From IMG/VR virus record IMGVR_UViG_3300007538_000020, positions 30,982 to 94,981 of that record: a stretch of 64,000 bases of DNA. One strand, given 5' to 3'. The notes under the pieces are model-generated. The model searched no databases. It saw only the letters and a program-made list of their open reading frames with translations, and had not been told where the DNA came from. The stretch comes from a virus. Positions 1-27,500 of the stretch are shown one piece after another; positions within the stretch are counted from its first letter, which is position 1, and each line of letters starts with the position of its first letter. The translations under genes were made by a program, and so were the position numbers.

Positions 1-225
1 TTGGGTGAATTCGGTGAAAGTCTAGAAGTAGATAACCCCGAGCCAAGCTAAGTTTAGGTTAAAAGAACTTAGAAGGTGTAACGCATAGTAAATGAGCCTA
101 ACAATAATTTTACCACGAGCGCCCAACATTTTTAATAAAAAATGATGATGTATGCTGAACTGTAGATATAACAATTATGAAACTACAGAATTTAAAGATA
201 AAAAACTTTAAAGATAACAACATTG
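1..225 (+). ncRNA. Group I intron, 3' part (5' part lies left of the window)
   Basis: The segment folds as the 3' two thirds of a group I intron core. P3 pairs 1-5 with 122-126 (TTGGG/CCCAA). P4 pairs 11-14 with 38-41. A P6-like hairpin pairs 48-54 with 66-72. P7 pairs GCATA at 83-87 with TATGC at 151-155. P8 is a hairpin 127-133/138-144. P9 pairs 160-165 with 183-188, followed by a P9.1-like hairpin 191-197/206-212. The long insert between the P7 5' strand and the P3 3' strand suggests subgroup IA. The intron should end with G at 225, and the downstream exon then resumes the uracil-DNA glycosylase active site in frame. P1, P2 and any homing endonuclease gene are outside the window. The pairings are seen directly; the subgroup and the splice point are inferred. 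Confidence 0.85.
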
Positions 226-726
226 CCATATCATACTCCTAATGTAGCAGATGGTTTATGTTTTAGTTCTAATCTAAAACATATAGTACCACCTAGTCTT
301 AGAAATATTTTAACTGAAATGTATAATGATATTTATAATAAAAAACAATTAGATATTAAAGCTAATCCTAATTTGGAATATTTAGCTAAACAAAACGTTT
401 TATTATTAAATACAGCATTAACAGTTGAAAGAGGTTCGCCTGGTTCTCATACAGAATTATGGAAACCATTTACTAATTATGTTTTAAATAAAATTAGTGA
501 TAGAAAAACAGATAATATAGTAATCTTTTTATTATGGGGAAATAAAGCGAAAGAATATAAACCTATAATAGAAAAAAATAACTTTAATATCATATATGAA
601 GCAGCTCATCCATCTCCATTTTCAGCATATAATGGTTTCTTTGGATGTAGACATTTTAGCTCTGTAAATGAAACATTAAGGTTTTATAATGAAAATAGTA
701 TTAATTGGATTGATGAAATTAATTAA
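226..726 (+). CDS. ung: Uracil-DNA glycosylase family 1, 3' exon (partial)
   Basis: This exon supplies all but the N-terminal part of a family 1 uracil-DNA glycosylase, which removes uracil from DNA. It begins PYH, the second half of the GQDPYH water-activating motif. It continues with GLCFS (uracil-stacking Phe), PPSLRNI, LLNTALTV, FLLWGNKA and the HPSPFSAYNGFFGC loop with the catalytic His. The match to E. coli Ung motifs is in order and complete from this point on. The TTG at 223-225 gives an open frame but is not a start: the last intron base is probably G225, and the 5' exon should end in GAT (Asp). The stop overlaps the next gene by 14 bases. Its presence suggests genome or nucleotide-pool maintenance by the phage. 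Confidence 0.93.
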   Translation, partial: PYHTPNVADGLCFSSNLKHIVPPSLRNILTEMYNDIYNKKQLDIKANPNLEYLAKQNVLLLNTALTVERGSPGSHTELWKPFTNYVLNKISDRKTDNIVIFLLWGNKAKEYKPIIEKNNFNIIYEAAHPSPFSAYNGFFGCRHFSSVNETLRFYNENSINWIDEIN

Positions 727-1495
727 TAAATATAATCCTAAATTAGGAATAGAAGCTTTTAAGTTTGGAATAAAATATGCAGCATGTTTAAAAGGTGAAA
801 ATGATGAATTTTATAATATAACAGCTTTTGCTACATGTAAAGATTTATTTCCAGACATTTACTGGTATGAATACAAAGGAAAGAAAGAGAAAAAAGAAAA
901 ATATATATATGGTTACGACTTATTATATACAGAAGAATATGTAAAAAATGATATTAATCATATTTGTTTACAATTAAATAAAGAACAGTTTGAATTATAT
1001 AATAAGAATTTAGAATTTTATACTGATTTTTGTAATAAATATTTGAAATATTTTAATGTAAAAGGAGAAATTAAAACCTTTGTAATTGAGAATGAAACTA
1101 AAGATGAATTTAATTATGTAATGTGTGAATTTCCAAAACACTTATGTGATAAACATTTTTTAGCTTCTATGTTAATATTAGTATTGAGAAATGGAATATA
1201 TCTAAGTAAAAAGAGAATATCTTTTAAACTCTATATTTTAGATTTAATTTCTATAGGTACAGAAATAGAGAACCAAAACAAAAAATCTACTATAATAACT
1301 ATAATAAGAGATTATTATTATTTCAAAAATATTATTAAAGTTTTATCTTTATTAAGAAAACATAAGAAGCATATAAAATCTTATTATAATTTTAATTATA
1401 TAGGAGATTCCCATGGATTTGGTGTTGTTAATATTTCAAATAATTTAGCGGATGAATCAAAATTTAAATACGTAGTAAATGAAAGTTTCATATAG
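713..1495 (+). CDS. Unknown protein coupled to the amidoligase cluster
   Basis: I do not recognise this protein of about 260 residues. An in-frame ATG at 689 would add eight residues. I prefer ATG 713 because it overlaps the glycosylase by only 14 bases. The sequence is basic, with many Lys and Tyr. It has a few conserved-looking spots (DSHGFG near the C-terminus, CEFPKHLCDKHF in the middle). It shows no clear signal peptide, and the hydrophobic stretch near the middle (ASMLILVLRNGIYL) looks like a buried helix or strand. It ends inside the start of the ATP-grasp gene (17-base overlap), so it is translationally coupled to that pathway. It could be a substrate-binding or scaffolding partner, but this is inference from position only. 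Confidence 0.8.
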   Translation: MKLINKYNPKLGIEAFKFGIKYAACLKGENDEFYNITAFATCKDLFPDIYWYEYKGKKEKKEKYIYGYDLLYTEEYVKNDINHICLQLNKEQFELYNKNLEFYTDFCNKYLKYFNVKGEIKTFVIENETKDEFNYVMCEFPKHLCDKHFLASMLILVLRNGIYLSKKRISFKLYILDLISIGTEIENQNKKSTIITIIRDYYYFKNIIKVLSLLRKHKKHIKSYYNFNYIGDSHGFGVVNISNNLADESKFKYVVNESFI

Positions 1496-2273
1496 AATAA
1501 AAATAAGAAGTAGACATCCTAGTCATAGTGTCTTAAGAAAAAATTTACCTAAATTAGGTTTTACTAGTATTGTTAGATTAGGCAGTACTACAGAATTACT
1601 AGATAAATCCAAAGTAGAATTAAATTCAATAGAATCAATAAGAACTAGTAGTAATAAACTACTAATGAAAGAAGCTTTTACAAAACATAATGTTAAAACA
1701 GCAGATTGGTTTAAATTAATTGATATAAATAAAGAAGAACTTCCTTTCGAATATCCTATTGTAATAAAAAACATTTATGGAAGTAGAAACACAGGTAATC
1801 ACTTTATTTCTAATAGAGAGGAATTAGATTCTTTTTTAAGTAAAAGTATTAATTTAAACAATTATATTGTTGAGAAATATTATAATTATAATAAAGAATA
1901 TAGATTACATGTAAATAAACATACTTGTTTTTATACTTGTAGAAAAATGTTAAAGACTGATGCTAAAAATAGATGGTTCAGAAATGATTCTAATTCTATT
2001 TGGGTTTTAGAAGAAAATGAATTATTTGATAGACCAGCTAATTGGAATGAAATAGTTAATGAATGTATAAAAGCTTTAAATGCTGTTGGATTAGATTTCG
2101 GAGCAATTGATTTAAGAGTACAATCAAATAAAGATAAGAAAGAAAATATAAGACAAAATCCTGATTTTATAGTTATTGAAACAAATAGTGCTCCTAGTTT
2201 TGGAAATATAACACAACAAAAATATTTAGAAGAAATACCTAAAATGTTAATTAACAAATACAACAATAGATGA
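1479..2273 (+). CDS. ATP-grasp ligase (RimK/YheC-like)
   Basis: A 264-residue ATP-grasp family protein. These enzymes form amide or peptide bonds through an acyl-phosphate intermediate. The signatures are in order: the substrate-side N-terminus to about residue 60; a Lys plus glycine-rich loop (VIKNIYGSRNTGNH, about residues 94-107) that grips ATP; IVEKYYNYNKEYRLHV; FGAIDLRV; and the metal-binding end motif IETNSAPSFG (Glu and Asn near residues 234-236), equivalent to the E-x-N of RimK-like ligases. The stop overlaps the next start as ATGA, so translation is coupled to the amidotransferase. With the following amidotransferase and amidoligase it resembles the phage amidoligase gene clusters described by Iyer and colleagues (2009). 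The substrate is unknown. Confidence 0.85.
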   Translation: MKVSYRIKIRSRHPSHSVLRKNLPKLGFTSIVRLGSTTELLDKSKVELNSIESIRTSSNKLLMKEAFTKHNVKTADWFKLIDINKEELPFEYPIVIKNIYGSRNTGNHFISNREELDSFLSKSINLNNYIVEKYYNYNKEYRLHVNKHTCFYTCRKMLKTDAKNRWFRNDSNSIWVLEENELFDRPANWNEIVNECIKALNAVGLDFGAIDLRVQSNKDKKENIRQNPDFIVIETNSAPSFGNITQQKYLEEIPKMLINKYNNR

Positions 2274-4426
2274 TTTTAAGTAATATTTTATTAACGCTTT
2301 TATTTTGGTATAGTTTGATAACTTTTATAAGTTTGATGTTTACTAAACCAAAATATAATACCTTTAATTGTGGGTTATTTGGATACATAGGTCCTAAAGC
2401 TGATGTAATGGCTTTAAAAATACTGGGCTTATATAATAATGATAGAGGAGGAGACTCATGTGGTTTTGCTTTAAAAACCGATAATTTAGATGATTTTATT
2501 ATTGATAAAGGTTTTGATAGTAAAAAAGACTGGGGAGATTTTATAGTTTCATCTGAATTATGTAATTATGAAGATGAAACAGTTAAAGTTTTCTTAGGTC
2601 ATACTAGAAAAGCTTCAAAGTTTTATTCTAAAGAGAAAGAAACACATCCTTTCTTAATACAAAATCAAGATACAAATATAGATATAATAGGAGCACATAA
2701 TGGCACTATCCATAATATGACTGATTTATTAACTAAATATGATATGTCAGATGTTAAAGACATAATGGATTTAGATAGTTATCAATTATTTTCTATATTA
2801 AATACTAAGAATTATTCTGTATTAAAAAACTACGAAGGAACAGCTACTTTAACATGGACTTTTCCTAAAGAAAATGATTCTTTGTATATATATAAAGGAG
2901 CTTGTTTAGTTGAACAATGGAATAATACAACCAAAAAACATGAAGAAGTATTAGTAGAAGAAAGACCATTATATTATGTTAGAATAAATGATGGTTACTA
3001 TTATTCTTCTTTATACATGTCTTTAAAAGCTTGTTTTCCTAATAATAAAGTAGAATGTTTTCCTACAAACAAAGTTATTAAACTTTATTTAAACAAGGAT
3101 AATAAAGTAATAGTAAGTTATCCTAAAACTTCTGATGTAGATAGAAGTGATAACAAACAAAATGCTAATACTGGTAGAAAAAGAGTTGTTATTACTAATG
3201 TAAATAACAACATAAACACTTATTCTAGCGCTGCAAAGCAGACAGCCCTTCCATGGGAGAAAGAAACGGAAAAAACAGAAAGCTCGAAGAAGACGAAGAT
3301 GATTCAAGATTTCAGTTCTTTAAAAAATATTTTTGGAACTGGAATTAGTATTTTGTCAGAGCCTAAGTTAGATGTTTTAGACACAACTATTCATTTAGAC
3401 CGAGTTGTGTATTGGAGGGGTAGGTACTATAAAAATGGTCATTTGTGTCATGGAACATTTACATTAGATAAGTTCGGATATAAAAAAGATTCACCTTTAT
3501 TTAGTCAATATCAAGGACCTAGAATTTATTATTTTATTTTAGGTATGTTGGTAACTGAATCTGATTTTGGAAAATTATATAATGTCAACACAGATAGTGC
3601 TATTAAAAACAAAGTATTTGTAACTGATTCTTGTTATATAGATGTAGCTTTTATGAAAGATTGTTTAGTATCAGGTCATTATTATTCAGATACTACTTAT
3701 GATTTTATAGAAACCCATAGTAATTATGGATATGAACTATTTAGTTCAGATGGATTTAATGAGAAAGAAATTGAATACAAACCTTTATTTTCAAATAGAG
3801 TATATAAGATTTCATCAGATGATAAAGTATTAGGTTTAATGGAAGATATGTTTGATTCTTATATTGTTGTAAAAAAGGATTCTAGTCCAGGGTGGCTAAA
3901 GAAAACTGTACAATATTCAGTATCTTCAGCTAGTACAGAATTTATTTACTTAAATGGTTCTAAAAATCAAAATATGATTATTACAAATGACGATAATGAT
4001 AATACCAAATCTAACTCTAATTCTGATTTCAATCCTACTGAATTAACAGAAGATGTAAAAGATGTAGAAGATGCTCCATTCGATAAAGATATGGAAATGA
4101 TTTATGACGATAAAAATTATATGGAAGGAATAGCGTTAGAATTAAAAAGAGAAATTTGTGATAAATATATTTCATTTGTAGAAACAGAAATAGACAATTT
4201 TATAAAAGAAATAGAAGAAGCTAATGAAGAAATTGTCTATGCTACAGTTAATAAAGATGAAGATTTGGAACAAGTAGATTCTACTTTAAATCGTTTTATT
4301 AAAGATTTAAAGCAAGCTAAACTTTACTTAAAAGAAAGAATGAATTCTGCTATGAAAAATAGCGAGTTTATTGATTTGAATATAGAAGATAAGAATAGCA
4401 AACAGGAAATTCTTATTAATGATTAA
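2270..4426 (+). CDS. Class II glutamine amidotransferase-like (Ntn hydrolase) protein with N-terminal hydrophobic segment
   Basis: A 718-residue protein whose first third is a class II glutamine amidotransferase/amidohydrolase domain of the Ntn-hydrolase fold. It has nucleophile Cys34 in NCGLFGYIG, then RGGDSCG (residues about 59-65), GHTRKAS (about 110) and HNGTIHN (about 143). All are canonical for glutaminase domains of purF/asnB/glmS type. A hydrophobic segment occupies residues 6-23, so Cys34 is not N-terminal in the primary product. A second ATG at 2336 would leave an 11-residue propeptide. A low-complexity linker lies around residues 295-345. A region with the pattern WRGRYYKNGHLCHG (about 385) follows, and the C-terminus is acidic and helical. 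It starts in an ATGA overlap with the ATP-grasp gene. It probably supplies ammonia or trims gamma-glutamyl amides. Confidence 0.87.
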   Translation: MILSNILLTLLFWYSLITFISLMFTKPKYNTFNCGLFGYIGPKADVMALKILGLYNNDRGGDSCGFALKTDNLDDFIIDKGFDSKKDWGDFIVSSELCNYEDETVKVFLGHTRKASKFYSKEKETHPFLIQNQDTNIDIIGAHNGTIHNMTDLLTKYDMSDVKDIMDLDSYQLFSILNTKNYSVLKNYEGTATLTWTFPKENDSLYIYKGACLVEQWNNTTKKHEEVLVEERPLYYVRINDGYYYSSLYMSLKACFPNNKVECFPTNKVIKLYLNKDNKVIVSYPKTSDVDRSDNKQNANTGRKRVVITNVNNNINTYSSAAKQTALPWEKETEKTESSKKTKMIQDFSSLKNIFGTGISILSEPKLDVLDTTIHLDRVVYWRGRYYKNGHLCHGTFTLDKFGYKKDSPLFSQYQGPRIYYFILGMLVTESDFGKLYNVNTDSAIKNKVFVTDSCYIDVAFMKDCLVSGHYYSDTTYDFIETHSNYGYELFSSDGFNEKEIEYKPLFSNRVYKISSDDKVLGLMEDMFDSYIVVKKDSSPGWLKKTVQYSVSSASTEFIYLNGSKNQNMIITNDDNDNTKSNSNSDFNPTELTEDVKDVEDAPFDKDMEMIYDDKNYMEGIALELKREICDKYISFVETEIDNFIKEIEEANEEIVYATVNKDEDLEQVDSTLNRFIKDLKQAKLYLKERMNSAMKNSEFIDLNIEDKNSKQEILIND

Positions 4427-4437
4427 TTTTTTAAAAT

Positions 4438-6084
4438 ATGTCTATTATAATAAATGAAGACGTTGATATTGATATGAGTAATTTAAAAGTTGTTAGTGTT
4501 AGTGGTAAAGAAATTCCAAGAACAAATGCTATTAGAATTAAAGGAAGATGGTATGAAAGAAATGTAGATTGTTTCATGATTCCTAATATTGGAAACAAAA
4601 TAGGAAAAAATGGAAAAGACTATATGTGGCATATTAAGAATAATGGTATAATTGATTTGGATTTTGAAAAAAATGAATATAGAAGAATTAGTGATATGCT
4701 TAAAGAAGGCAAAGTAAAAGGTTATATAAATAAAAAACTTGACGTTGCTTACTTTACTATTAATCCTAATTATTCTGTATTGATTAAAGAATCTTTGGGA
4801 GACCCTGGTTTATATTGTTTAAATAAAGAATTAATAGAAAACAATCCTAAATTTGTAGAAGATTTAGTAACAGGAATATATTATGTAAAAGATAATATTA
4901 ATTCTTCTTTACTAAAAAATATTACAAAGAAAAGAATAGACCATAACCAATATCCTGAAGGTTTAACCTATAATGCTGACCCTAATAATATACTATATCT
5001 AAAAATTATAGAAGAGCATACTAAATACAAAAATAGTATGAAACCTTCTAAAAACGTAAAAATAATTGCTAATAACTTATTAGAAAATTATTCTTTTGGT
5101 GTTGAGTTTGAAACTATAAATGGAACTATACCTAAGAATCTTTGTTCTATGTATGGTATAGTACCACTTAGAGATGGTTCTTTAAAAGGTCCTTACGGAG
5201 AAGGTATTGAATTTACAACAGTACCTTTAAGTGGAGCTGTTGGATTAGAAATCCTAAAAAATCAAACTTACGAATTATCTAAAAGATGTGAAATATCTCA
5301 TAATTGTAGTATGCATTTACATATATCTGGTATACCAAAAACAAGATATAATGCGATGGCTGTTTATAAGTTATTTTATCTATTAGAGGAAGAGTTCTTT
5401 GGTTTAGTTCAACCTTATAAAGAGAATCCTGGAAAACTATGTTCTGATTGGAAAAAGTTTTCTTCAGACATAAGAGACAATTATTGTAGCAAATTACCTA
5501 AATTTAGTTTTTTAAATAAAACTGTATCTGAATCTGAAGCTATAAATTATTTTAAAGATTTATTTATATTTTTAGCTGACCATTCAGAGATAACAAAAGA
5601 AAGTAGTATTTATAATTTTGAAGCTTATGTACATCCTAAGAATAGAAAATGGTTGATTAATAGTAGATATTATTGGGTTAACTTTGTTCCATTTGTATTT
5701 AATAGAAGTGAAACTATAGAGATGCGTTTACATACGCCAACTCTTAATTTTACTAAAACAAGTTGTTGGTTATTTATAAATTTAGCTGTATTAAAATTTG
5801 CAGAAAATAATGCTAATCTTATTTTAAATAAAGATTTTAATAAGATTACATTAGAAGATGTAGTTAAAGGATATCTAACTGACTTCGGAAATACTAAATT
5901 AAGTAGAACAGAAGAAGAAAACTTAATAATAAAAGATTTTGTTGATTACTTATTGGCTTATATTAATAATAGAAAAGAGTTATACTTTAGCAATAAAGAA
6001 AAGAAATTATATTACGATAAAAAAGAATTTGTTGACGATAATACATTTTCGTTGAAACATAAAAGAATGAATAGTCTTTATTAA
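4438..6084 (+). CDS. Amidoligase (COOH-NH2 ligase, glutamine-synthetase-like fold)
   Basis: A 548-residue protein carrying a putative amidoligase domain related to the glutamine synthetase/gamma-glutamylcysteine synthetase fold. Visible signatures are FGVEFET (about residues 219-225), DGSLKGPYGEGIEFTT (about 246-261), SMHLHISG (about 290-297) and ETIEMRLHTPT (about 424-434). These are the metal- and ATP-binding elements of Amidoligase_2 proteins. The first 200 residues are an extra N-terminal region that includes RIKGRWYER, reminiscent of the WRGRYY region in the preceding amidotransferase-like protein. It starts 11 bases after that gene, so the ATP-grasp, amidotransferase and amidoligase are probably made together. 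It should form an amide bond between a carboxylate and an amine, with unknown target (peptide, cell-wall component or virion protein). Confidence 0.87.
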   Translation: MSIIINEDVDIDMSNLKVVSVSGKEIPRTNAIRIKGRWYERNVDCFMIPNIGNKIGKNGKDYMWHIKNNGIIDLDFEKNEYRRISDMLKEGKVKGYINKKLDVAYFTINPNYSVLIKESLGDPGLYCLNKELIENNPKFVEDLVTGIYYVKDNINSSLLKNITKKRIDHNQYPEGLTYNADPNNILYLKIIEEHTKYKNSMKPSKNVKIIANNLLENYSFGVEFETINGTIPKNLCSMYGIVPLRDGSLKGPYGEGIEFTTVPLSGAVGLEILKNQTYELSKRCEISHNCSMHLHISGIPKTRYNAMAVYKLFYLLEEEFFGLVQPYKENPGKLCSDWKKFSSDIRDNYCSKLPKFSFLNKTVSESEAINYFKDLFIFLADHSEITKESSIYNFEAYVHPKNRKWLINSRYYWVNFVPFVFNRSETIEMRLHTPTLNFTKTSCWLFINLAVLKFAENNANLILNKDFNKITLEDVVKGYLTDFGNTKLSRTEEENLIIKDFVDYLLAYINNRKELYFSNKEKKLYYDKKEFVDDNTFSLKHKRMNSLY

Positions 6085-7476: not shown

Positions 7477-8029
7477 CAATTATAATTATAGTAGTAAATT
7501 CTTACTTCCTTTTTTAAGACCTAATTATGGAATGTTATTTAATGCTTTTAATTTAAAAAATTGTTATATCGGAGATGAGAGATTTGTTCCTAAAGAAAAG
7601 AATCGTTTATATTTACTTTTTCATCCTAAACCTAATGATTTAAATGAATTTAAAAAAATACTTCAAAACAAAGGTATACCAAATATGGAATTTTATTATC
7701 CAACAAATAATATTTTAGAATATGTTGTTGTATGTAATTTTCCAAAAGATTGCTTTTATTATTTAAAAGAATTTATACAAGGAAGATATTCTAAAATTAA
7801 GCAAACAGATATTAACAAATACTTTCCAAGAATGGTTAGAAACGTATACGGAGATTCTATTATATCTCCTACTTGGGAAATATTAGTTAAATCTAAAAGA
7901 TTAAAGAAACAATTAGAACAAGATTTAGAAGTAGAGATAGATGATGAACAGGAATTATTCAGTATTCCTTATAACAATAGAGAAATAATCGAACAAAGTA
8001 AAACAAAATTATTTAATTATGTCGAATGA
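7469..8029 (+). CDS. Unknown protein
   Basis: A 186-residue protein I cannot assign. It is soluble, with an aromatic-rich N-terminal half and motifs such as YLLFHPKP, NDLNEFKKIL and MEFYYPTNNI that suggest an alpha/beta domain. A positively charged middle (FPRMVRNVYGD) is followed by a charged C-terminal helix. It overlaps the exonuclease by eight bases and the nucleotidase fusion by 11, so it is an integral member of the nucleic acid/nucleotide metabolism run. No catalytic motif is evident. Confidence 0.8.
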   Translation: MNNNYNYSSKFLLPFLRPNYGMLFNAFNLKNCYIGDERFVPKEKNRLYLLFHPKPNDLNEFKKILQNKGIPNMEFYYPTNNILEYVVVCNFPKDCFYYLKEFIQGRYSKIKQTDINKYFPRMVRNVYGDSIISPTWEILVKSKRLKKQLEQDLEVEIDDEQELFSIPYNNREIIEQSKTKLFNYVE

Positions 8030-8828
8030 GATAGGATTGAGATTTAATAAAGATAAGATTAGACATGATTTATTACCACCTTTTGCTATTAATGAAGTAG
8101 CTAAAGTATTAACATTTGGAGCTACTAAATATGAACCCAGAAATTGGGAAAAAGGATTAAGTTGGACAAGTACTTTAGCTAGTTTAAAAAGGCATTTAAA
8201 TCTTCTTGAACAAAGAGAAGATTATGATAAAGAATCTAATATGTTACATGCTGCTCATATAGCTACTAACGCATTAATGTTATTAGAGTTTTATAAAATA
8301 GCTCCTCAATTTGATGATAGACCGCTAAGAACTTTAGATCAACAATTTACCTTAGATATAGATGATGTTATATGTAGTTGGATGGATGCTTGGACAGATA
8401 GATTTAATCTTCCAAAAACTAATAACTCCTGGTATTTTGATAGAAATATTCTAGATAGATTTAAAGAATTAGCTAATAATAAAGAATTAGATGAATTTTA
8501 TTTATCTTTAAAACCTTTAATTGATCCTAAAGATTTACCATTTGAACCTCATTCTTATGTAACTAGTAGACCTGTTGATTCTGAAATAACAGAGAAATGG
8601 TTAGATATGCATGGGTTTCCAACAAGACCTGTTATAACTGTAGGATTAAATGGTTCTAAAGTAGATGCTATTAAATCTACAGGATGTAAAATACATGTTG
8701 ATGATAGTTATCGTAACTATCTAGATCTAACTAAAAACGGAATCTGTTGTTATTTATTTGATAGACCATGGAATCATAAATACGATGTTGGTTTTAAAAG
8801 AATATATTCTTTAAATGATTTAAAATAG
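8019..8828 (+). CDS. Fusion: dATP/dGTP diphosphohydrolase-like domain plus HAD 5'(3')-deoxyribonucleotidase
   Basis: A 269-residue two-domain enzyme. Residues 1-95 match the phage dATP/dGTP diphosphohydrolase (MazG-like, all-alpha) family: GLRFNKDKIRHDLLPP, LTFGATKYEPRNWEKG, SLKRHLNLLEQRED, HAAHIATNALMLLE. Members of this family cleave dNTP to dNMP and pyrophosphate; MazZ of cyanophage S-2L acts on dGTP. Residues 108-269 are a HAD phosphatase: DIDD (nucleophile Asp113, acid/base Asp115), VTSRP (motif II, about 181-185), Lys214 (motif III) and HVDDS (Asp228/Asp229). This fits a 5'(3')-deoxyribonucleotidase. The fusion would run two consecutive steps, dNTP to dNMP to deoxynucleoside. Substrate specificity is not visible. 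It ends one base into the next gene. Confidence 0.88.
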   Translation: MSNEIGLRFNKDKIRHDLLPPFAINEVAKVLTFGATKYEPRNWEKGLSWTSTLASLKRHLNLLEQREDYDKESNMLHAAHIATNALMLLEFYKIAPQFDDRPLRTLDQQFTLDIDDVICSWMDAWTDRFNLPKTNNSWYFDRNILDRFKELANNKELDEFYLSLKPLIDPKDLPFEPHSYVTSRPVDSEITEKWLDMHGFPTRPVITVGLNGSKVDAIKSTGCKIHVDDSYRNYLDLTKNGICCYLFDRPWNHKYDVGFKRIYSLNDLK

Positions 8829-18566: not shown

Positions 18567-21500
18567 TTAAAAAGGAGGAGGACCACAATCGTCACCTTCT
18601 ACCATATCTTCATCAGTTATTTGATCTCTTAGATCGTCTATAGTTAATTGACTTGGGTCTAATAAAGATCCAAATGGAGAACTAGTAGGAAGTAAATCAG
18701 AATTTAAAGTAGGTGTTTCTTCTTTATTTATAGGAACTTCTACTGCTACTTCATTAACAGATTTAGTTAAAAAAGAGTTCATAGAATATTCATTATTTAA
18801 TTGATTTACTTTTTCAAATATTCTATGAGTATCTGTTTCATCATATATCATATATAATTCACTTCTTCTTTTTTCTTTATTATACAGTTTAACAAAATCT
18901 GTTACTAATAAAGTATCAGGAGTAGTATTTTTAGTTATATCTATAGATACAGTTCTCTTATCTTTTGAAAATCTACCATTAACTATTTCAGGAGCTTTAT
19001 TAGGATTGTTTCTAAAGAATTGTTGGACAAATAATTTAGACATCTTTATCTCATTAATAGGATTATTATTTAGTATAGAATAAAACTCTTTAGAATTATA
19101 AGCATCTCCAAATCCAATAGATACTAAATACTCTATAGGAATAATAGAACTCAATCCATTAGAACTTCTTAGACCACCTGTTGTTAAATAAGAATAAGCT
19201 ATTAAATCTTTAGCTAATAAAGCTTCTTCTGCATTATCAGAAGATAACATATCAGCTACAGTTTTCATACCATAAATTCTTTCAGTTGATTCTAATTGGT
19301 TTGTATTTAAAGTAATCTTATCTACAAATAATTCTTTATTATCAGCTAACTCAATATTCATTCTTTGCATTAACCAATTATCAGGATTATCTGTTTTATA
19401 TTTTAATAACCTGGCTCCTATTCCTTTAAGAATATTTTTTCTATATTCATCAAAAGTTACTTCTGTAGAATAAAGATTATTTTTCTTATAAGTCATTAAG
19501 AATTGAATTAATGCTTTTTTAACATCTCTACTTAGTTTTTGAGATAACTCATCACTACCTAAAGATTTTAAAATATCAGCATTAATATCATAAAACAACT
19601 TACTATTATATGGATATAAACTATTATTGTTATATAAACTTATAACAGGTCTATAAGCTTTATCCATTAACTCACCTGCAAATGTTTTAGTATAAAAATC
19701 ATCTACATTTCTAAATGGTAAAGCTTTAACAGCTTCTTCTGAAAGTTGAGTACTCTCTCTATATTTATCTGATAGATTTATGTTTTTAACTAAATCAGTA
19801 AAGTTTTTACCTACTGATTGAGTATCTATATTTAAACCATTTATAACTTCAGTTAATTTAGCAGCTGTATTACTATATTGCATATAAGTATGTAATATTT
19901 TTAATTGAGCTTCATAGAATAATATCTTTTGTTGATTATTTAAAGATTCTAAATTTTTATTAATTTTTAAATTATTCTCTAAACCTTTTTTAGAAAATAT
20001 ACCAATATCAGTAGCTGTAAATGGTTTACCTTTTAATTCTTTTATTTTATTATTAAAATAATTTATAGTTTGTATTTCAGCTTCTTCTTCATAAGTAGTC
20101 TTTACATACTTATTTAAACTTGATTTACTAGCTTTTAAAATTTCAATATATTTAACAATAGCAGGTTGTTTTAAAAAGCCTACAATCAAAGATAAATCAT
20201 CTATACCAGATATTGCTATATACATAGCTGTAGGTAATGTTTCTATATTTAAATTAGCTTTATTCAACTGTTGCTCTTTAGCGTTATCCACAGCAGCAGA
20301 TTGGAATATCTGTAGTATATCTGATATATAGGTATTGTTAACAACACCTCTTATTTTATTAAGTTTAAATAATCCAAATAATTCTTTATTATTATAAGAA
20401 CCTGCTTTGTCTAAATCAACATCAGTATATAATTCATCTGAATCATCTTTTTTAAATTTAACTCCTTTTATAACATCATTTGTTTTTAAAGCAAAATTAG
20501 TATACTGAGCTTGAGAAAAGAAAGTAGAAAATAAAGAAGTAATACCAACTGCTGTTTTACCTACTACGTTAGATTCGAAATAAGCATCTTGTGTTACTGA
20601 AGAAAAAGGACTTATTACTTCTGTTTGTTCATCATATTGACTATAGTGATCATTCACTTCTTTTAACACATCAATTTCGTTTGGCTTCAACATTCTTTCT
20701 AATAACTTAGGATTAGTAAGAACATCTAAGTACATATCTATTATCTTATTCTGTCTGGCTTTTAAAGTATTCTGAGCAGCAGGTGATTGTTCTTTAAAGG
20801 TTTCAAAGTCAGGAATATATTTTTTATTTATCAATTCATTTATTAAAGATTTTTTACTTGTTATATAATCCTCTTCTATTTCTTTAAATTCTTTATTTAA
20901 AAATAAAGTCTTAACATTTAATAACTCTATTTTTTCTCTTATTTCATCTTCTTCTTCTCTAGTTTTAGCTTCTTCTAATTGTTCAGCATAATCTTCTAAT
21001 AGACGTTGAGTATCTTTATTACTCTTTATTGCTTTCTCATACTCTTTCTTATAAAATGAGAATGTTTTGAGTTTTGATTTATTCTCTCTTAAATATAAAG
21101 CTAATAACTCTTCTACTTTTTCAACATACCTATTCTCTACATCTTTCTCATCTAAAGATTCACTATATTTAACTACTTGTTTAGTTATAGGATCTACGTT
21201 TTTAAAATAAATATATAATTTATCAACGTCAAAGTCAGATCCCATTCTCTTCAACATCTCAGGAGAAACTACAACTAAGTCTCCCATAGAAGGAGGTAAG
21301 AATCCTTGAATTTTTAATGGAACCATTAAGTTATGTCCTTGGTTAGGAATCCTAAAACCAACTACTCTTAATAATTCTTCAGGTATATTATTAATATCGC
21401 TAAAATAACTTTTAAAGATATTTGGTAAATATATTCCTTCAGGTAATGTTCTAGCTTCTTCATTAGATTTTTGATTAAACCTTTCATTTAAAATATCAGA

Positions 21501-24500
21501 TAAAGCTCTAGCTTGAGATATATCTGTAGTAGCAAATTGATCAGTTAATGTTTTACCTTTAGCTTTTTGATATAAATCTTTTTCTAAATCTGGATTTTCA
21601 TTTAAATATTGTTCCCATAAAGATTTATAAGCTTGGTAAGACTCTTCTTTAGTCATTTTATTTAAAGGTGCTTTACCTTTACCTAATTTCCAATCGTTAC
21701 CTTGAACTCTATATCCTTTAACATCTAATTGATATGCTTCCTCTATAGTTCTACCATCATTTAATTTAGCATATAAAGCACTAAATCTTTTATCTCCTTT
21801 AGAAGAAACTTCATAATTATTTTTATTTTCTTTTTTATATCTACTCCAATCTATTTTTGTTTCTGATTCAATAGATAAGGTATCTAATGAATTACTATTA
21901 TCTCTAATATACTGAATCTTATTTTTTGCATTTTTAAATAATTCTGATTCTGTATCTATTACTTTATTAAATGCAAAGTTAGAAGCTTGAACAAATGATT
22001 TACCACTCATCTTCTGTTTTACTAATTTATTAGTAAAAATAGATAATAAGAGTGATTCTATTTGTTCAGAGTAAGGTGTTAAGTATAAAGGAATTAAGAA
22101 TTTATTATCAAGTGTTTCTAAAGCTTGTAAAAAGTTTTCATCAAATCCTCTTGACTCAGCTTCTCTTAATATTACTTCTTTAAATTTATCTATATTATTT
22201 ATTTGATACCTTTTAGTTTCAGGATCATAATAAGACTCTAAAGTAGCTACTATTAAGTTTCTATAATTCTCTTGTACTGTATATAAGTGTAAGTCTTCGA
22301 ACAATGCTTTTTTCTCTTCTGCATTAGCATCAAATTCTTTTAAAGCTTCAAAGAGAAGTTTTCTAGCCTGAGAAACTAAGTTTACTTTATTTTTCTCTGC
22401 ATCGAAAGGAACTTCTTGCTGTAGTCTCATACCACTCCAAGGAAGAACATTTATGTTATCGGGATCTAAATCTAATAACTCATAGTTTTCATTTACAATT
22501 GGTTGTATACCTTGTGAACCTATCTTAGAAGCAGATTCAAAAAATAGTATATCTACAGGATTATCTTTATTTTCCATTTTATCCTTTAACTCTTTTAATT
22601 GAGTAAAGTTATTATTATTAACTAATTCGTTAATCAATGGAAATGCTGAGAACTTAATATATTTAGGTACATATACTTTTAAAGTATCATCCCATACATC
22701 CTCCACGTATACAGGTTTCAGAGGTCCTAATACTTTGTATAAATCTTTATTAGATAGTTTTTGATTATTTCTTATCTTATTAATAATTCTCTTATAATCT
22801 TTATCTAATCTACCTAAACCATCTAACATTTTTTCATAAGTATCTAAGGTTACTATTGCCTGAGCATCAGTACCATTCATATCTTTAGAATACTCTTCAA
22901 CTAATTTATCATAAGTTTTCTTATCTTTAACAATTGATTTTAAGTCTTCTAAAAATTTATCTTTATTTTTTAAAGGATAATAAATATCTTTAACGATAGC
23001 AGCTCTAAATGAACCTTCTAAAAAGAAGTCTAAACCAGGAGCTAAGTTTTTAGCAGCTCGTTTTGAAGCATCATCAAGGTTTTTAGTAAAAGCTAAATCG
23101 TTATCCATCAAACTAGAATATACAATTTGAGATAATAAACTATTATATATATAACTATCTAATAAGTCTATATCTTTATCTTTTTGTTTAGAATAATTTA
23201 CATCAATATATTTAGATAATATATTTCCTTTATTATTTACTAAATTAAGTTTTTGTAATTGTTTTATTTTTTCTTCTTTAAGCTTAATGAAAATATCATT
23301 TAAAGCATTTAATATTTGTTCCTTATGTACTTCTGGATTATATAAAGGATCAGTTAATAAGAAAGTAGAGTTCTCTGTAGATAAACTTGTTTTATTTAAA
23401 GTTGGAAATATTACAAATTTAAAAGCTTCCCCATCTTTACTTAATTTATCTTTTTTGTAATGATAGTTTAAAACTAACTTTGATTCTAATCTCTTTTTTA
23501 GAGCTGGGTCAGTTGTAGTTTTTATAGCATCTATTAATCTATGAGCTTCTCTTATTCTATTAAACTCTGATATATAAATACTATATAAGTTATTTAAAGA
23601 TTCAGAATCTAATCTATTATTAACAAAAGATACTCTAAACTTAGGCATTTTAATAAAAGGAATAGTAGGTTTATCTGACTGAGTAGGAGATATAAACCAA
23701 CCTGTACTATTACCTTCATTCATAAAACCAATCAATTTAGTTATCTCTCTTTCTTGAGGAGATAAGTTTTTAAATGGTTTACCATTACCATAATCTCCTA
23801 TTTTATTAAAGTTAGAGAATATAGCATATTCAAAATTAGTAGAATTCCACTCACCTGAATTTAATTTCTGTGTAATAAAACTATCTTTATGAAAAGGACT
23901 ATTATTTAAAGCTAATCTAAAAGTAGAATTAGCATTAAATAAATCTCTCATTTTTTTAGATAAAGCGTGATTAGCAAAAACAGAATAAATGTTTTTACCC
24001 TCTTCGTTTCTAAACATAGTTGAGTAAACGTTATTATTAGTTAATAATTCAGCTAATGATAACATTTTAATATTGTTACTTTCTTTAGAAAAAGGATTAT
24101 TATCTATCGCATTATCACCTTCTTTTATTGATTCTAATGATTCAAATATTCTATAAACAGAAGATAAGAATTTAGTAGCAGTGTATTTTCTATTAATTAA
24201 TTGAGGACTATTAACAATTATACTTATAGTTTCAGGACTAATATCTATACCTAAATCTTTTAATAATGGTCTTAAATAAGATAATTTAACTTCAATACTC
24301 TGCTGATTATCTTTTATAATTCTATAATTCTCTAATATTTTATTTATTCTTTTTAAATCATAAACTAATTGATTATTAGAATATTTTACATTCTTATTTA
24401 AATTTGTATTTTTAAAGTTTTCATACCAATTAGTTATTATTAATTCATTAGCTTCTCTTCTATTAGAATAAATAAATCTTAATGTATTATTATTGTCATT

Positions 24501-27500
24501 TTTAGTAAACTGAGCTGTAACAAATTTAGCATGTTGTTTACTAAAGTTAGACATGAATTCTTTATAAACAGCAACAGAGTCTTGATTTTTAGAATTCTTA
24601 AACTCATTTAATTTCTCAGCTATGTAATGATACATTGAATTATATCTACCTAATTCTTGTAACCTATCATATATTTCTTCTATAGGAACATTAGATAAGT
24701 TTAATACTAAGTTATTATATACTACATCATAAGGTAGATAAGATGTCATGTTGAAAATATTAACTTTATTCTCAAACGCACCTTTAGTATTCTTTATTCT
24801 TTCAGGAATAAAAGCTAAAAACTTTTTCATTCTGGCAGAAGCTGAATCTTTTGGATTAACCTGAAATGCTTCTCTACCATAAGATTCTGAACCAATAGAA
24901 TCTAACTCTAAATCTTCATCATACTCATCTTCTAATAATTCAGAGTATGTTATGATTTTATCAAGACTTTTTATATAAGCAATAGATTTTTCTACTATTT
25001 TTTTGAAAGTAGGATTATTAAAATCATTTGCTAGAATAGATTCATATCTTTCTAATATAGGATCTTCTGAATCTAGTAATTCTATTTCTTCTTTAGTTTC
25101 TAATAATATATTTTTTAATTTACTAACAGCTTCATCTATTTTTTTATCTGGATTACGTAGAATAAAATCCAATAATACTTTACTTGATGATTTTAATATT
25201 TCATCAGTTTCGAAAATAGATAATTCAGGAACTAAGAAGTTTTCATATAAATCATATGATTTTTCTTCAGAGTTTAATTTATTATTAGAATATTTGTTAT
25301 CATAGTTTAATATATCAGATACATGCTTATCTACTAATTCATAAATAGAATTATTTTTAGTTGATATACCAAATAAAGATTTAATAAAATCTATAAACTT
25401 ATCAAATACAGATTTATCTTTATCAGTATTTTTTAATCTTTCTTTAAACTCTTTATTAGAAAAAGCTTCTGATAAGAATTCATCTATTGATGATAAAGCA
25501 TAATTGAACTTATCATCTTTTATTTTCTCTTTAGCTTCTTTGTATAATTGTTGTAGATCTTTATTACCTGTGTGTTTATGTAAAGCAGCGTGTAATAATT
25601 CGTGTACTATTACATATTCTATATCTCTTGAAGACTTTTTAATAGCTTTAGTATTAATAAGAATTGTATTAGTATTAGCATTATATTTAGCTATCTTTTT
25701 ATCCTGAGCATAGTAATATTTAAAGGTAGGTAAATTACCTTTTAAGTTATTTAATATCTTATCATAAATAATACTTAATTCAGGATCTTTACTAATTAGT
25801 TCTGGTAATACATCATATTCATTACCTACTAATTTAGTTAATTGTCTTATGTTATGTATATTACCTAATTGTGAATTGAAAGTAACACTAGAATCTATAA
25901 AAAATAAGTCATTAGGATTTTCTACATCATCTAAATCGATTACTTTACCTAAAGGATTTGTTTTACCAGATGATTTACCTTTAGGAGGAGTTTTAGGTGG
26001 AGTTTTAGGCTTAGGCTTAGGCTTAGCTTTTGGCTTAGGTTTAGCTTTAGGTTTAACTGATTTAGTAGCAGGTTCGTTTTTGTTAGTTAAAGCTTTATTA
26101 ATATATGCTTCGGCAAACTCTCTTATATTTTTAAAACCTTGTTTATCTTTTTTATATTCAGCTAAAATGCTAGGATATTTCTTAGCAATATTTCCTACAG
26201 CTTTTTCAGTTTGTACATATTCTAAATCTTCATTTGTAAATTTAGTATTTTCTGTATCAGGTATTAGTACTTCTTTATTATTAGGTTTATAAGTAGATTC
26301 TTCTTTTTTAGAAGTTTCATCTATAACTTTAAATGATATTACTGGTTGTAAGTTATAATACTTTTTACCAGGATTACTTTCACTATAAGGTAAACCTTTA
26401 ACATTAGTTGTTAAGTTTCTACCAAGAAACTCTCTATTACTTATTTTACCTTTATAAACTAATTGGTTATTATCAAATTCCATATTGATATAATCACCTT
26501 TAAGTATATTATATCTAAGGTTAGATAATAATTCTCTTATTTTAGATTCATCTTTATTAGTAAAATATTCAGTAGTCCATCCTCCTTTAGAAGACTTAGT
26601 AGTGAATATTCTAATTTCTTTTGTTTTACTATCTCTAACTACTTTAAAGTTATTAGAGTTATTACCATTATAAACAATATAATTCAATAGTTTTGAAGCA
26701 GAATTAATTTCCGCAGGAAAACCTAATTTAGCTAATTCTGTTGGGTTATCATATCTATCCCAATTTTGTAATATATATAGAGCTTTTTCTATAGCATTTT
26801 GATCTAATTGTCTAGGAACAACAGCCCATGGCATTAATACTTTTTTATTAGGATTTTTAGAACCTCTTGCGAAAGTAGGTATTAATGCGAATACAGTACC
26901 TTTTTTAAATTTATTTACATTACTAACATCTATTTCACTATCAGATAAATCTGGGTTACCTATTATTTGTAAAGCATTAACATCATCTGCATAACCAAAT
27001 GCTATATCAGAATCTAATGTTTGACCATCTCCTAACTTTTCTACTAAACTACCATAGTTATCTGTTTTATTAAACACACCATTATTCTTATCAGTTATTT
27101 CTATAGTAACTGGATTATTATTAGTTACTAAACTATCAAATAATTTAGTTCTTAATTCTAATAATTGTTTCTGAGCTTCTTTAGTATTTTTTTCACTTAT
27201 TAATCTTGCTATGTTAGGATCTATTCTATCTAAACTAGTTACTTGATTTTGGAAAGCATGTACATAAGCTACTTTCTTATTATTAGAATCTACTATAACA
27301 TAAGGAATCTTATGTAAGTTTTTAGAGTTTATCTCTATATTATTCTCCTTAGCATATTCCTCATCTATAATAATTGAAAATCTCTCACCTGGTAATATCT
27401 TATCTCTATCTAATAAATCATTGTTTATTAAATTATTAATAACAAGATTACCATTTTCATCATAGACATCTTCTAAATCTTCATTTTTTTCTATATGAAG

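Follow-up and report, generated by a model that had tools for sequence, protein, structure and literature searches.

The window analysed here, bases 30,982-94,981 of the 94,981-base virus record IMGVR_UViG_3300007538_000020 (a 95-kb genome), opens with part of an amide-chemistry gene cassette: an ATP-grasp carboxylate-amine ligase, a class II glutamine amidotransferase (GATase; GAT2) and an Amidoligase_2-type enzyme (AL). The system is of an already known kind, the peptidoglycan modification cassette. This phage has six cassette enzymes, in two separate blocks; by family assignment they comprise three putative ATP-dependent carboxylate-amine ligases and three putative openers of gamma-glutamyl amides, namely the class II GATase, a Peptidase_C26 class I GATase (C26) and a gamma-glutamyl cyclotransferase (GGCT). 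What is new is that a crAss-like genome has the set split, that GAT2 and AL form a strict unit and that a transmembrane (TM) leader stands at the catalytic Cys of GAT2. The explanation tentatively preferred, at somewhat below an even chance, is a membrane-associated, glutamine-dependent pathway that would amidate or gamma-glutamylate a putative lipid-linked envelope precursor early in infection.

The first block, orf329-C26-COOH ligase, occupies roughly 17.9-20.9 kb in record coordinates (L177:2928-5923), with the C26 GATase and COOH-NH2 ligase genes placed between an RNR gene and a DNA polymerase gene. The second, at about 29.6-37.1 kb, runs GGCT, uracil-DNA glycosylase (UDG, not a cassette member), orf260, ATP-grasp, GAT2 and AL (Table 1). 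The orf260 and ATP-grasp genes overlap by 17 nt, the ATP-grasp and GAT2 genes share an ATGA overlap (2270-2273), and the gap from GAT2 to AL is 11 nt. Reading the 31 kb before the window located GGCT (L177:14584-14976; GGACT Pfam 9.5e-17), the 389 aa C26 GATase (Pfam 5.5e-23) and the COOH-NH2 ligase (PF14395, 4e-12; L177:5105-5923). These three lie outside the window, so the impression of the first-pass annotation that the set at 713-6084 was complete does not hold; its three-family interval stands for 1479-6084, and the first gene, orf260, is not a member of any of these families. A second C26 gene, common in many relatives, was not seen in this genome.

Table 1. Features of the second cassette block within the window (window positions)
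Feature	Position	Strand	Remarks
UDG gene, 3' exon	226..726	+	context, outside cassette; UDG Pfam 2.4e-11
orf260	713..1495	+	family start 713; longest ORF 689-1495, 268 aa; unknown fold
ATP-grasp carboxylate-amine ligase, 264 aa	1479..2273	+	phrog_2599, RimK similarity
Class II glutamine amidotransferase (GAT2), 718 aa	2270..4426	+	GATase_6, AF2 model, Foldseek
GAT2 N-terminal transmembrane leader, 33 aa	2270..2368	+	ends directly at catalytic Cys codon 2369-2371
Amidoligase_2-type (GS/GCS-like COOH-NH2 ligase) enzyme (AL), 548 aa	4438..6084	+	phrog_2443

All three families named in the first-pass annotation are present by Pfam and PHROG matches, two of them under the Pfam cut-off, and the motifs it described as intact proved to be conserved across about 100 homologues per family. 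GAT2 matches GATase_6 (4e-7) above the cut-off. AL matches phrog_2443 (2.1e-16) and, under the 22-bit cut-off, Amidoligase_2 (PF12224; 0.001, 19.4 bits), for which its homologue in L009 scores 22.2 bits; it also carries an N-terminal extension of about 200 aa. Residue conservation was scored over 53-110 sequences, depending on family. Conserved residues are K60, K97, E140, R142, D211 and E234-x-N236 in ATP-grasp, and AL has invariant FGxExE (220-225), RDGS (245-248), E258, H293xH295 and ExRxH (428-432). Catalytic Cys34, R113, N144-G145 and D169 of GAT2 are kept in at least 99% of 110 sequences; E12, E54, H139, E201 and R203 of the COOH ligase, and the Cys-His-Glu triad of C26, are conserved in nearly all homologues. 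With catalytic residues conserved in nearly all sequences, these appear to be active enzymes; for GGCT, the divergence within the family is too great for a conservation-based statement of this kind.

The ATP-grasp protein matches phrog_2599 (3.7e-29) and Pfam RimK (6e-4, 19.9 bits), the latter just under the curated 21-bit cut-off, and is therefore claimed only as a member of the ATP-grasp superfamily. Its RimK-type similarity and its PHROG name, 'ribosomal protein S6 glutaminyl transferase', would suit protein modification, in which a RimK-like ATP-grasp enzyme and amidoligases would add amino acids to the host ribosome or RNA polymerase for takeover. Immediate-early timing in PSA-HP1 (PMC7082346) and the Iyer/Aravind peptide-tagging predictions, as cited in PMC4431377, would fit as well. 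However, the RimK score is under the cut-off, the profile compared with solved proteins matches PurK, PurD and D-Ala ligases and not RimK, and three ligases with two to four gamma-Glu opening enzymes would be excessive for one tag. Protein modification is thus unlikely.

GAT2 and AL appear to form a unit. The AF2 model of GAT2 has a glutaminase domain at 34-290 (pLDDT mostly above 90), an Ntn fold that matches the glutaminase domains of GlmS and PurF (Foldseek, E 5e-10). Beyond residue 290 the chain continues as a disordered linker, then a small beta region and finally a C-terminal coiled coil. No synthase or acceptor domain is present in the model, which suggests that GAT2 needs a partner. 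The C-terminus was considered as an acceptor domain; as modelled, the low-confidence linker, small beta region and coiled coil do not support this.

Linkage was surveyed by scanning IMG/VR separately with ATP-grasp, AL and GAT2 profiles; the first two scans, together with reference phages, collapse to 118 groups, and co-occurrence was counted in loci with at least 7.5-8 kb per side. GAT2 and AL were both found in 38/38 ATP-grasp-anchored loci, with the COOH ligase in 36/38. AL-anchored loci held GAT2 (57/57), COOH ligase (56/57) and ATP-grasp (51/57), and GAT2-anchored loci held AL (48/48), COOH ligase (47/48) and ATP-grasp (45/48). GAT2 was immediately upstream of AL in 95/95 cases, the two genes being separated by a median of 1 nt, and in 59/105 cases the COOH ligase gene was preceded by a C26 gene at a distance of no more than 150 nt. 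The three scans share contigs, and since loci were selected for their resemblance to crAss-type members, the rates apply to that lineage. The conserved linkage anticipated by the first-pass annotation is therefore borne out, essentially without variation and with profile matches for all three families. A second class II GATase-like gene follows AL (GAT2-AL-GAT2) in L079, L074, L082, L091, L220, L228 and L229.

Among deposited crAss-like phages the cassette is patchy at this search sensitivity, as crAss-type AL was found in only three distinct phages and TerL in 128 matching records. A bacterial chromosomal version was represented by only two contigs, one with an AL-UDG fragment and one, labelled Rickettsiales, with C26-COOH-GAT2-AL; both are possibly viral and were set aside as functional context.

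At least one gamma-Glu opening enzyme was present in 57/57 AL-anchored loci. Known gamma-glutamyl protect-and-release pathways likewise combine a GS/GCS-fold ligase with enzymes such as C26 (PuuD family, 5e-23) and GGCT (9.5e-17). Both points would agree with a soluble small molecule, for which an amine would be attached to glutamate as a gamma-glutamyl amide, the other ligases would lengthen it and C26/GGCT would release it, much as in Puu putrescine metabolism or the synthesis of the butirosin side chain, to yield a signal, inhibitor or counter-defence metabolite. However, such a product would leave the membrane leader of GAT2 unexplained, and the recurrent neighbours included no conspicuous transporter, carrier protein or oxidoreductase. 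A small molecule is regarded as possible but rather doubtful.

The N-terminus of the window GAT2 reads MILSNILLTLLFWYSLITFISLMFTKPKYNTFN, followed by the nucleophile Cys34. A TM leader is found in 51/106 non-redundant GAT2 proteins, the window's included, and is mostly 27-28 residues long (33 in the window). The consensus FKPKxN[TI]L[SN]-C ends exactly at the catalytic Cys, and Leu occupies position -2 in 42/50 leaders. All remaining GAT2 proteins but one begin at the Cys or within a few residues of it. TM leaders are essentially confined to GAT2 among the cassette proteins (54.5% vs 0-9%). The AlphaFold model shows leader residues 2-24 as a helix, most of it predicted with confidence. Net charge is +1.6 on the C-side and +0.1 on the N-side, with the charge on the C-terminal side in 42 vs 2 cases, which by the positive-inside rule implies an N-out/C-in leader and a predicted cytoplasmic enzyme domain.

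Two other accounts of the leader were considered. An annotation artefact was rejected, since the distance from the upstream gene is about as tightly kept for leader starts as for leaderless ones, and the leader start in the window is ATGA-coupled. A search of other frames upstream of leaderless genes for hidden leaders found only a few stop-interrupted or chance hydrophobic stretches, and a Shine-Dalgarno comparison found hardly any sites in either the leader or the leaderless class. A lipoprotein signal is also unlikely, given that about 8 residues including KPK separate the helix from the Cys and that position -3 is not the lipobox Leu. Known class II GATases require a free N-terminal Cys, and PurF of B. 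subtilis is processed. The leader form should thus be a pro-enzyme unless cut.

In the preferred explanation, GAT2 would hydrolyse glutamine or a gamma-glutamyl amide and pass the amine to AL, the two acting as a two-subunit glutamine-dependent amidotransferase; this is suggested because AL always follows GAT2 and GAT2 has no synthase domain. The same substrate may receive additional amide bonds from the C26/COOH-NH2-ligase pair and the ATP-grasp enzyme, while gamma-glutamyl groups may be taken off by GGCT/C26. In about half of crAss-type cassettes GAT2 would be a membrane-anchored pro-form, its leader cut at the catalytic Cys for activation, and the chemistry would take place on the cytoplasmic side of the inner membrane. 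The leader tilts the choice, short of proof, toward a membrane-linked substrate and hence the envelope; most simply this would be a lipid-linked cell-wall precursor, e.g. the lipid II stem peptide. The altered wall might serve superinfection exclusion or prepare lysis. The analysis establishes the families, motifs, linkage and leader, whereas the pairing, cleavage, substrate and benefit are what we infer. Early transcription in PSA-HP1 (PMC7082346) and the earlier peptidoglycan assignment (PMC5498523, PMC11945000) support this explanation.

Several points weigh against it. No linked substrate, product or envelope gene was found, and the cassette neighbours are replication genes, which would equally fit nucleotide chemistry. 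The GAT2-AL pairing is deduced from gene order and the missing acceptor domain, and leader cleavage before the Cys is assumed by analogy with class II GATase biochemistry. Additionally, 54/106 GAT2 proteins start without a leader, and on the GAT2 tree the leader state changes 28 times, at least 17 of them forced by well-supported branches, the exact number being soft because this is a quick tree with long branches. Judged from this switching and the leaderless forms, membrane anchoring is inessential to the pathway.

A more specific version, in which GAT2 would be a membrane-anchored zymogen whose leader blocks the nucleophile until removal at the conserved L-x-Cys activates it at the inner membrane, and in which lipid-linked wall precursors would be rewritten with a glutamine-fed GS-fold ligase, is held to be rather doubtful. 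If true, it would represent unusual control of an N-terminal-nucleophile enzyme. We know of no such anchored class II GATase pro-form and of no GATase-fed GS/GCS-fold ligase.

The genome is Crassvirales-like by TerL (34% identical to the phi14:2 TerL over 96% of its length), by portal and major capsid proteins, which also match, and by its oppositely oriented early and late blocks, in keeping with the first-pass identification of a crAss-like phage. The cassette genes are on the early strand, and the structural block is opposite. Because of this position in the early replication block, and because the cassette genes of PSA-HP1 are transcribed first (PMC7082346), modification of capsid or virion proteins, one of the functions suggested at first pass, is disfavoured; no direct support for it was found, and it is very improbable.

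Primase, UDG, exonuclease, DNA polymerase and RNR genes flank the two blocks, and a nuclease gene also neighbours the cassette. The constant location within a replication block (primase, UDG, exonuclease, RNR) would suit the placing of an amide-linked group on a base or nucleotide, and among the other proteins of this genome are MazG and one of the dATP/dGTP pyrophosphohydrolase type. However, no base-hypermodification enzyme was noticed beside the cassette, here or in annotated relatives, no systematic search having been made. Additionally, these phages keep UDG, and a membrane role would not be expected. DNA or nucleotide modification is therefore considered quite improbable.

The remaining gene of the second block, orf260, has no Pfam or PHROG match. 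Iterative hidden Markov model searches placed its family in 22/118 groups of module-bearing loci. A profile of closer relatives retrieved 24 contigs, most with AL, UDG or GAT2 within reach or present in the AL/ATP-grasp lists, the others being short or ending before the cassette. Invariant C42, D44, S152, H234 and G237 suggest a binding or catalytic site. Its AF2 model (pLDDT 73, pTM 0.74) has no significant PDB match; the top match, cyanophycin synthetase 7lgn, is insignificant (E 0.073, prob 0.30, TM 0.19). The N domain of cyanophycin synthetase holds the growing peptide for the ATP-grasp domain. As the orf260 gene overlaps the ATP-grasp gene, a possible likeness to this domain, short of a significant fold match, is treated as a lead only. 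A degenerate COOH-NH2 ligase was rejected, as there is no similarity and the true ligase is located elsewhere in the genome. Homology to the cr108_1-type accessory family A8 was also dropped, given an unsupportive profile comparison and weak structural matches; the two families have a common C...R...H order and occur in 22 vs 14 groups with no overlap. The orf329 gene (L177:2928-3917), which immediately precedes the C26 GATase gene, lacks relatives among the fetched loci; orphan proteins of similar size (families A8, B and C) recur near ligases of other cassettes.

A group I intron interrupts the UDG gene within its active-site motif (GQD|PYH), at window 1-225 and L177:15179-16100. The intron matches RF00028 over L002:6463-6679 (E 2.3e-8, below the gathering score), went undetected when 3 kb were searched in one piece against Rfam, and encodes a LAGLIDADG_2 endonuclease ORF (Pfam 6e-34). 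Window 8019-8828 encodes a protein with an N-terminal dATP/dGTP diphosphohydrolase domain (PF18909, 1e-30), the C-terminal half of which weakly resembles NT5C (5'-nucleotidase); PurZ was not noticed in this genome. A radical SAM protein (2e-10) is located in the early region (L176:12035-12919; G000 12.0-12.9 kb). On the minus strand, window 18567-30038 is a single 3823-aa ORF with only short PHROG matches, which by size and place we take to be the giant crAss-type protein that carries RNA polymerase in relatives.

A cassette of 5-8 kb is found in many crAss-like, Zobellviridae and LUZ24-like phages. Its cell-wall modification name is more than 10 years old; the literature searched gave no substrate, product or biochemistry for it, in agreement with the first-pass annotation as to the product, and no demonstration of altered peptidoglycan for any phage. 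The strict GAT2-AL adjacency offers a concrete enzyme pair to purify, and the membrane leader is a physical clue to the site of the chemistry. The open-access literature searched contained no description of the GAT2 leader or of the cassette in Crassvirales; its genes are already annotated one by one in the crAss-like isolate phi14:2. Since phi14:2 is crAss-like, available in culture and has the leader form, it makes the question directly testable.

The cassette of RIO1-like phages was called a peptidoglycan modification cassette in PMC5498523, which lists phiEco32, 7-11, PA11, tf, MR299-2, LUZ24, PaP3 and CW02; Hardies et al. 2013 is cited in this literature. PMC11945000 makes the same assignment for a LUZ24-like phage and cites superinfection exclusion or wall preparation for lysis as ideas. 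The same genes are listed in UFV-P2 (PMC3890496), and those of PSA-HP1 are expressed immediately (PMC7082346). They are also found in phi14:2, cr108_1, Leptolyngbya phage Lbo-JY46 and the Zobellviridae CVT22, PA11, RIO-1 and Klyazma. The present genome has the linked ATP-grasp, GATase and Amidoligase_2 genes, the COOH-NH2 ligase, GGCT with a class I GATase, and the early replication position. The podophages RIO-1/PSA-HP1, phiEco32, PA11, LUZ24 and PaP3 likewise have ATP-grasp, class II GATase, COOH-NH2 ligase, amidoligase and either GGCT or a class I GATase, located in an early replication region. In contrast, crAss-type GAT2 is larger, often with the TM leader ending at the catalytic Cys, crAss-type AL has its N-terminal extension, and the set of this genome is split and includes the extra orf260 family.

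Closest in content is Cellulophaga phage phi14:2 (Crassvirales, Steigviridae), in which g037-g041 encode GGCT, ATP-grasp, COOH-NH2 ligase, GAT2 with a TM leader and AL, followed by UDG. Identities to the window are 47% over 97% for ATP-grasp (g038), 31% for GAT2 and 30% for AL. However, its block is contiguous, without orf260 beside ATP-grasp and without C26, and its UDG is uninterrupted. Phages cr108_1 and Lbo-JY46 have the same enzymes in tandem, yet their GAT2 is leaderless (starting MCG) and C26 is in the same block; in Lbo-JY46 the ATP-grasp protein also has a long C-terminal extension. PurF and GlmS have the glutaminase fold and catalytic residues in common with GAT2, which differs in lacking a PRTase or SIS synthase domain and in having its catalytic Cys encoded behind a TM leader. 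The Puu (PuuA/PuuD), butirosin (BtrJ/BtrG) and ergothioneine (EgtA/EgtC) pathways each combine an ATP-dependent (gamma-glutamyl) ligase with a gamma-glutamyl opening enzyme (C26, GGCT or class II GATase), whereas the present cassette brings together three ligases and every one of these three families of opening enzyme.

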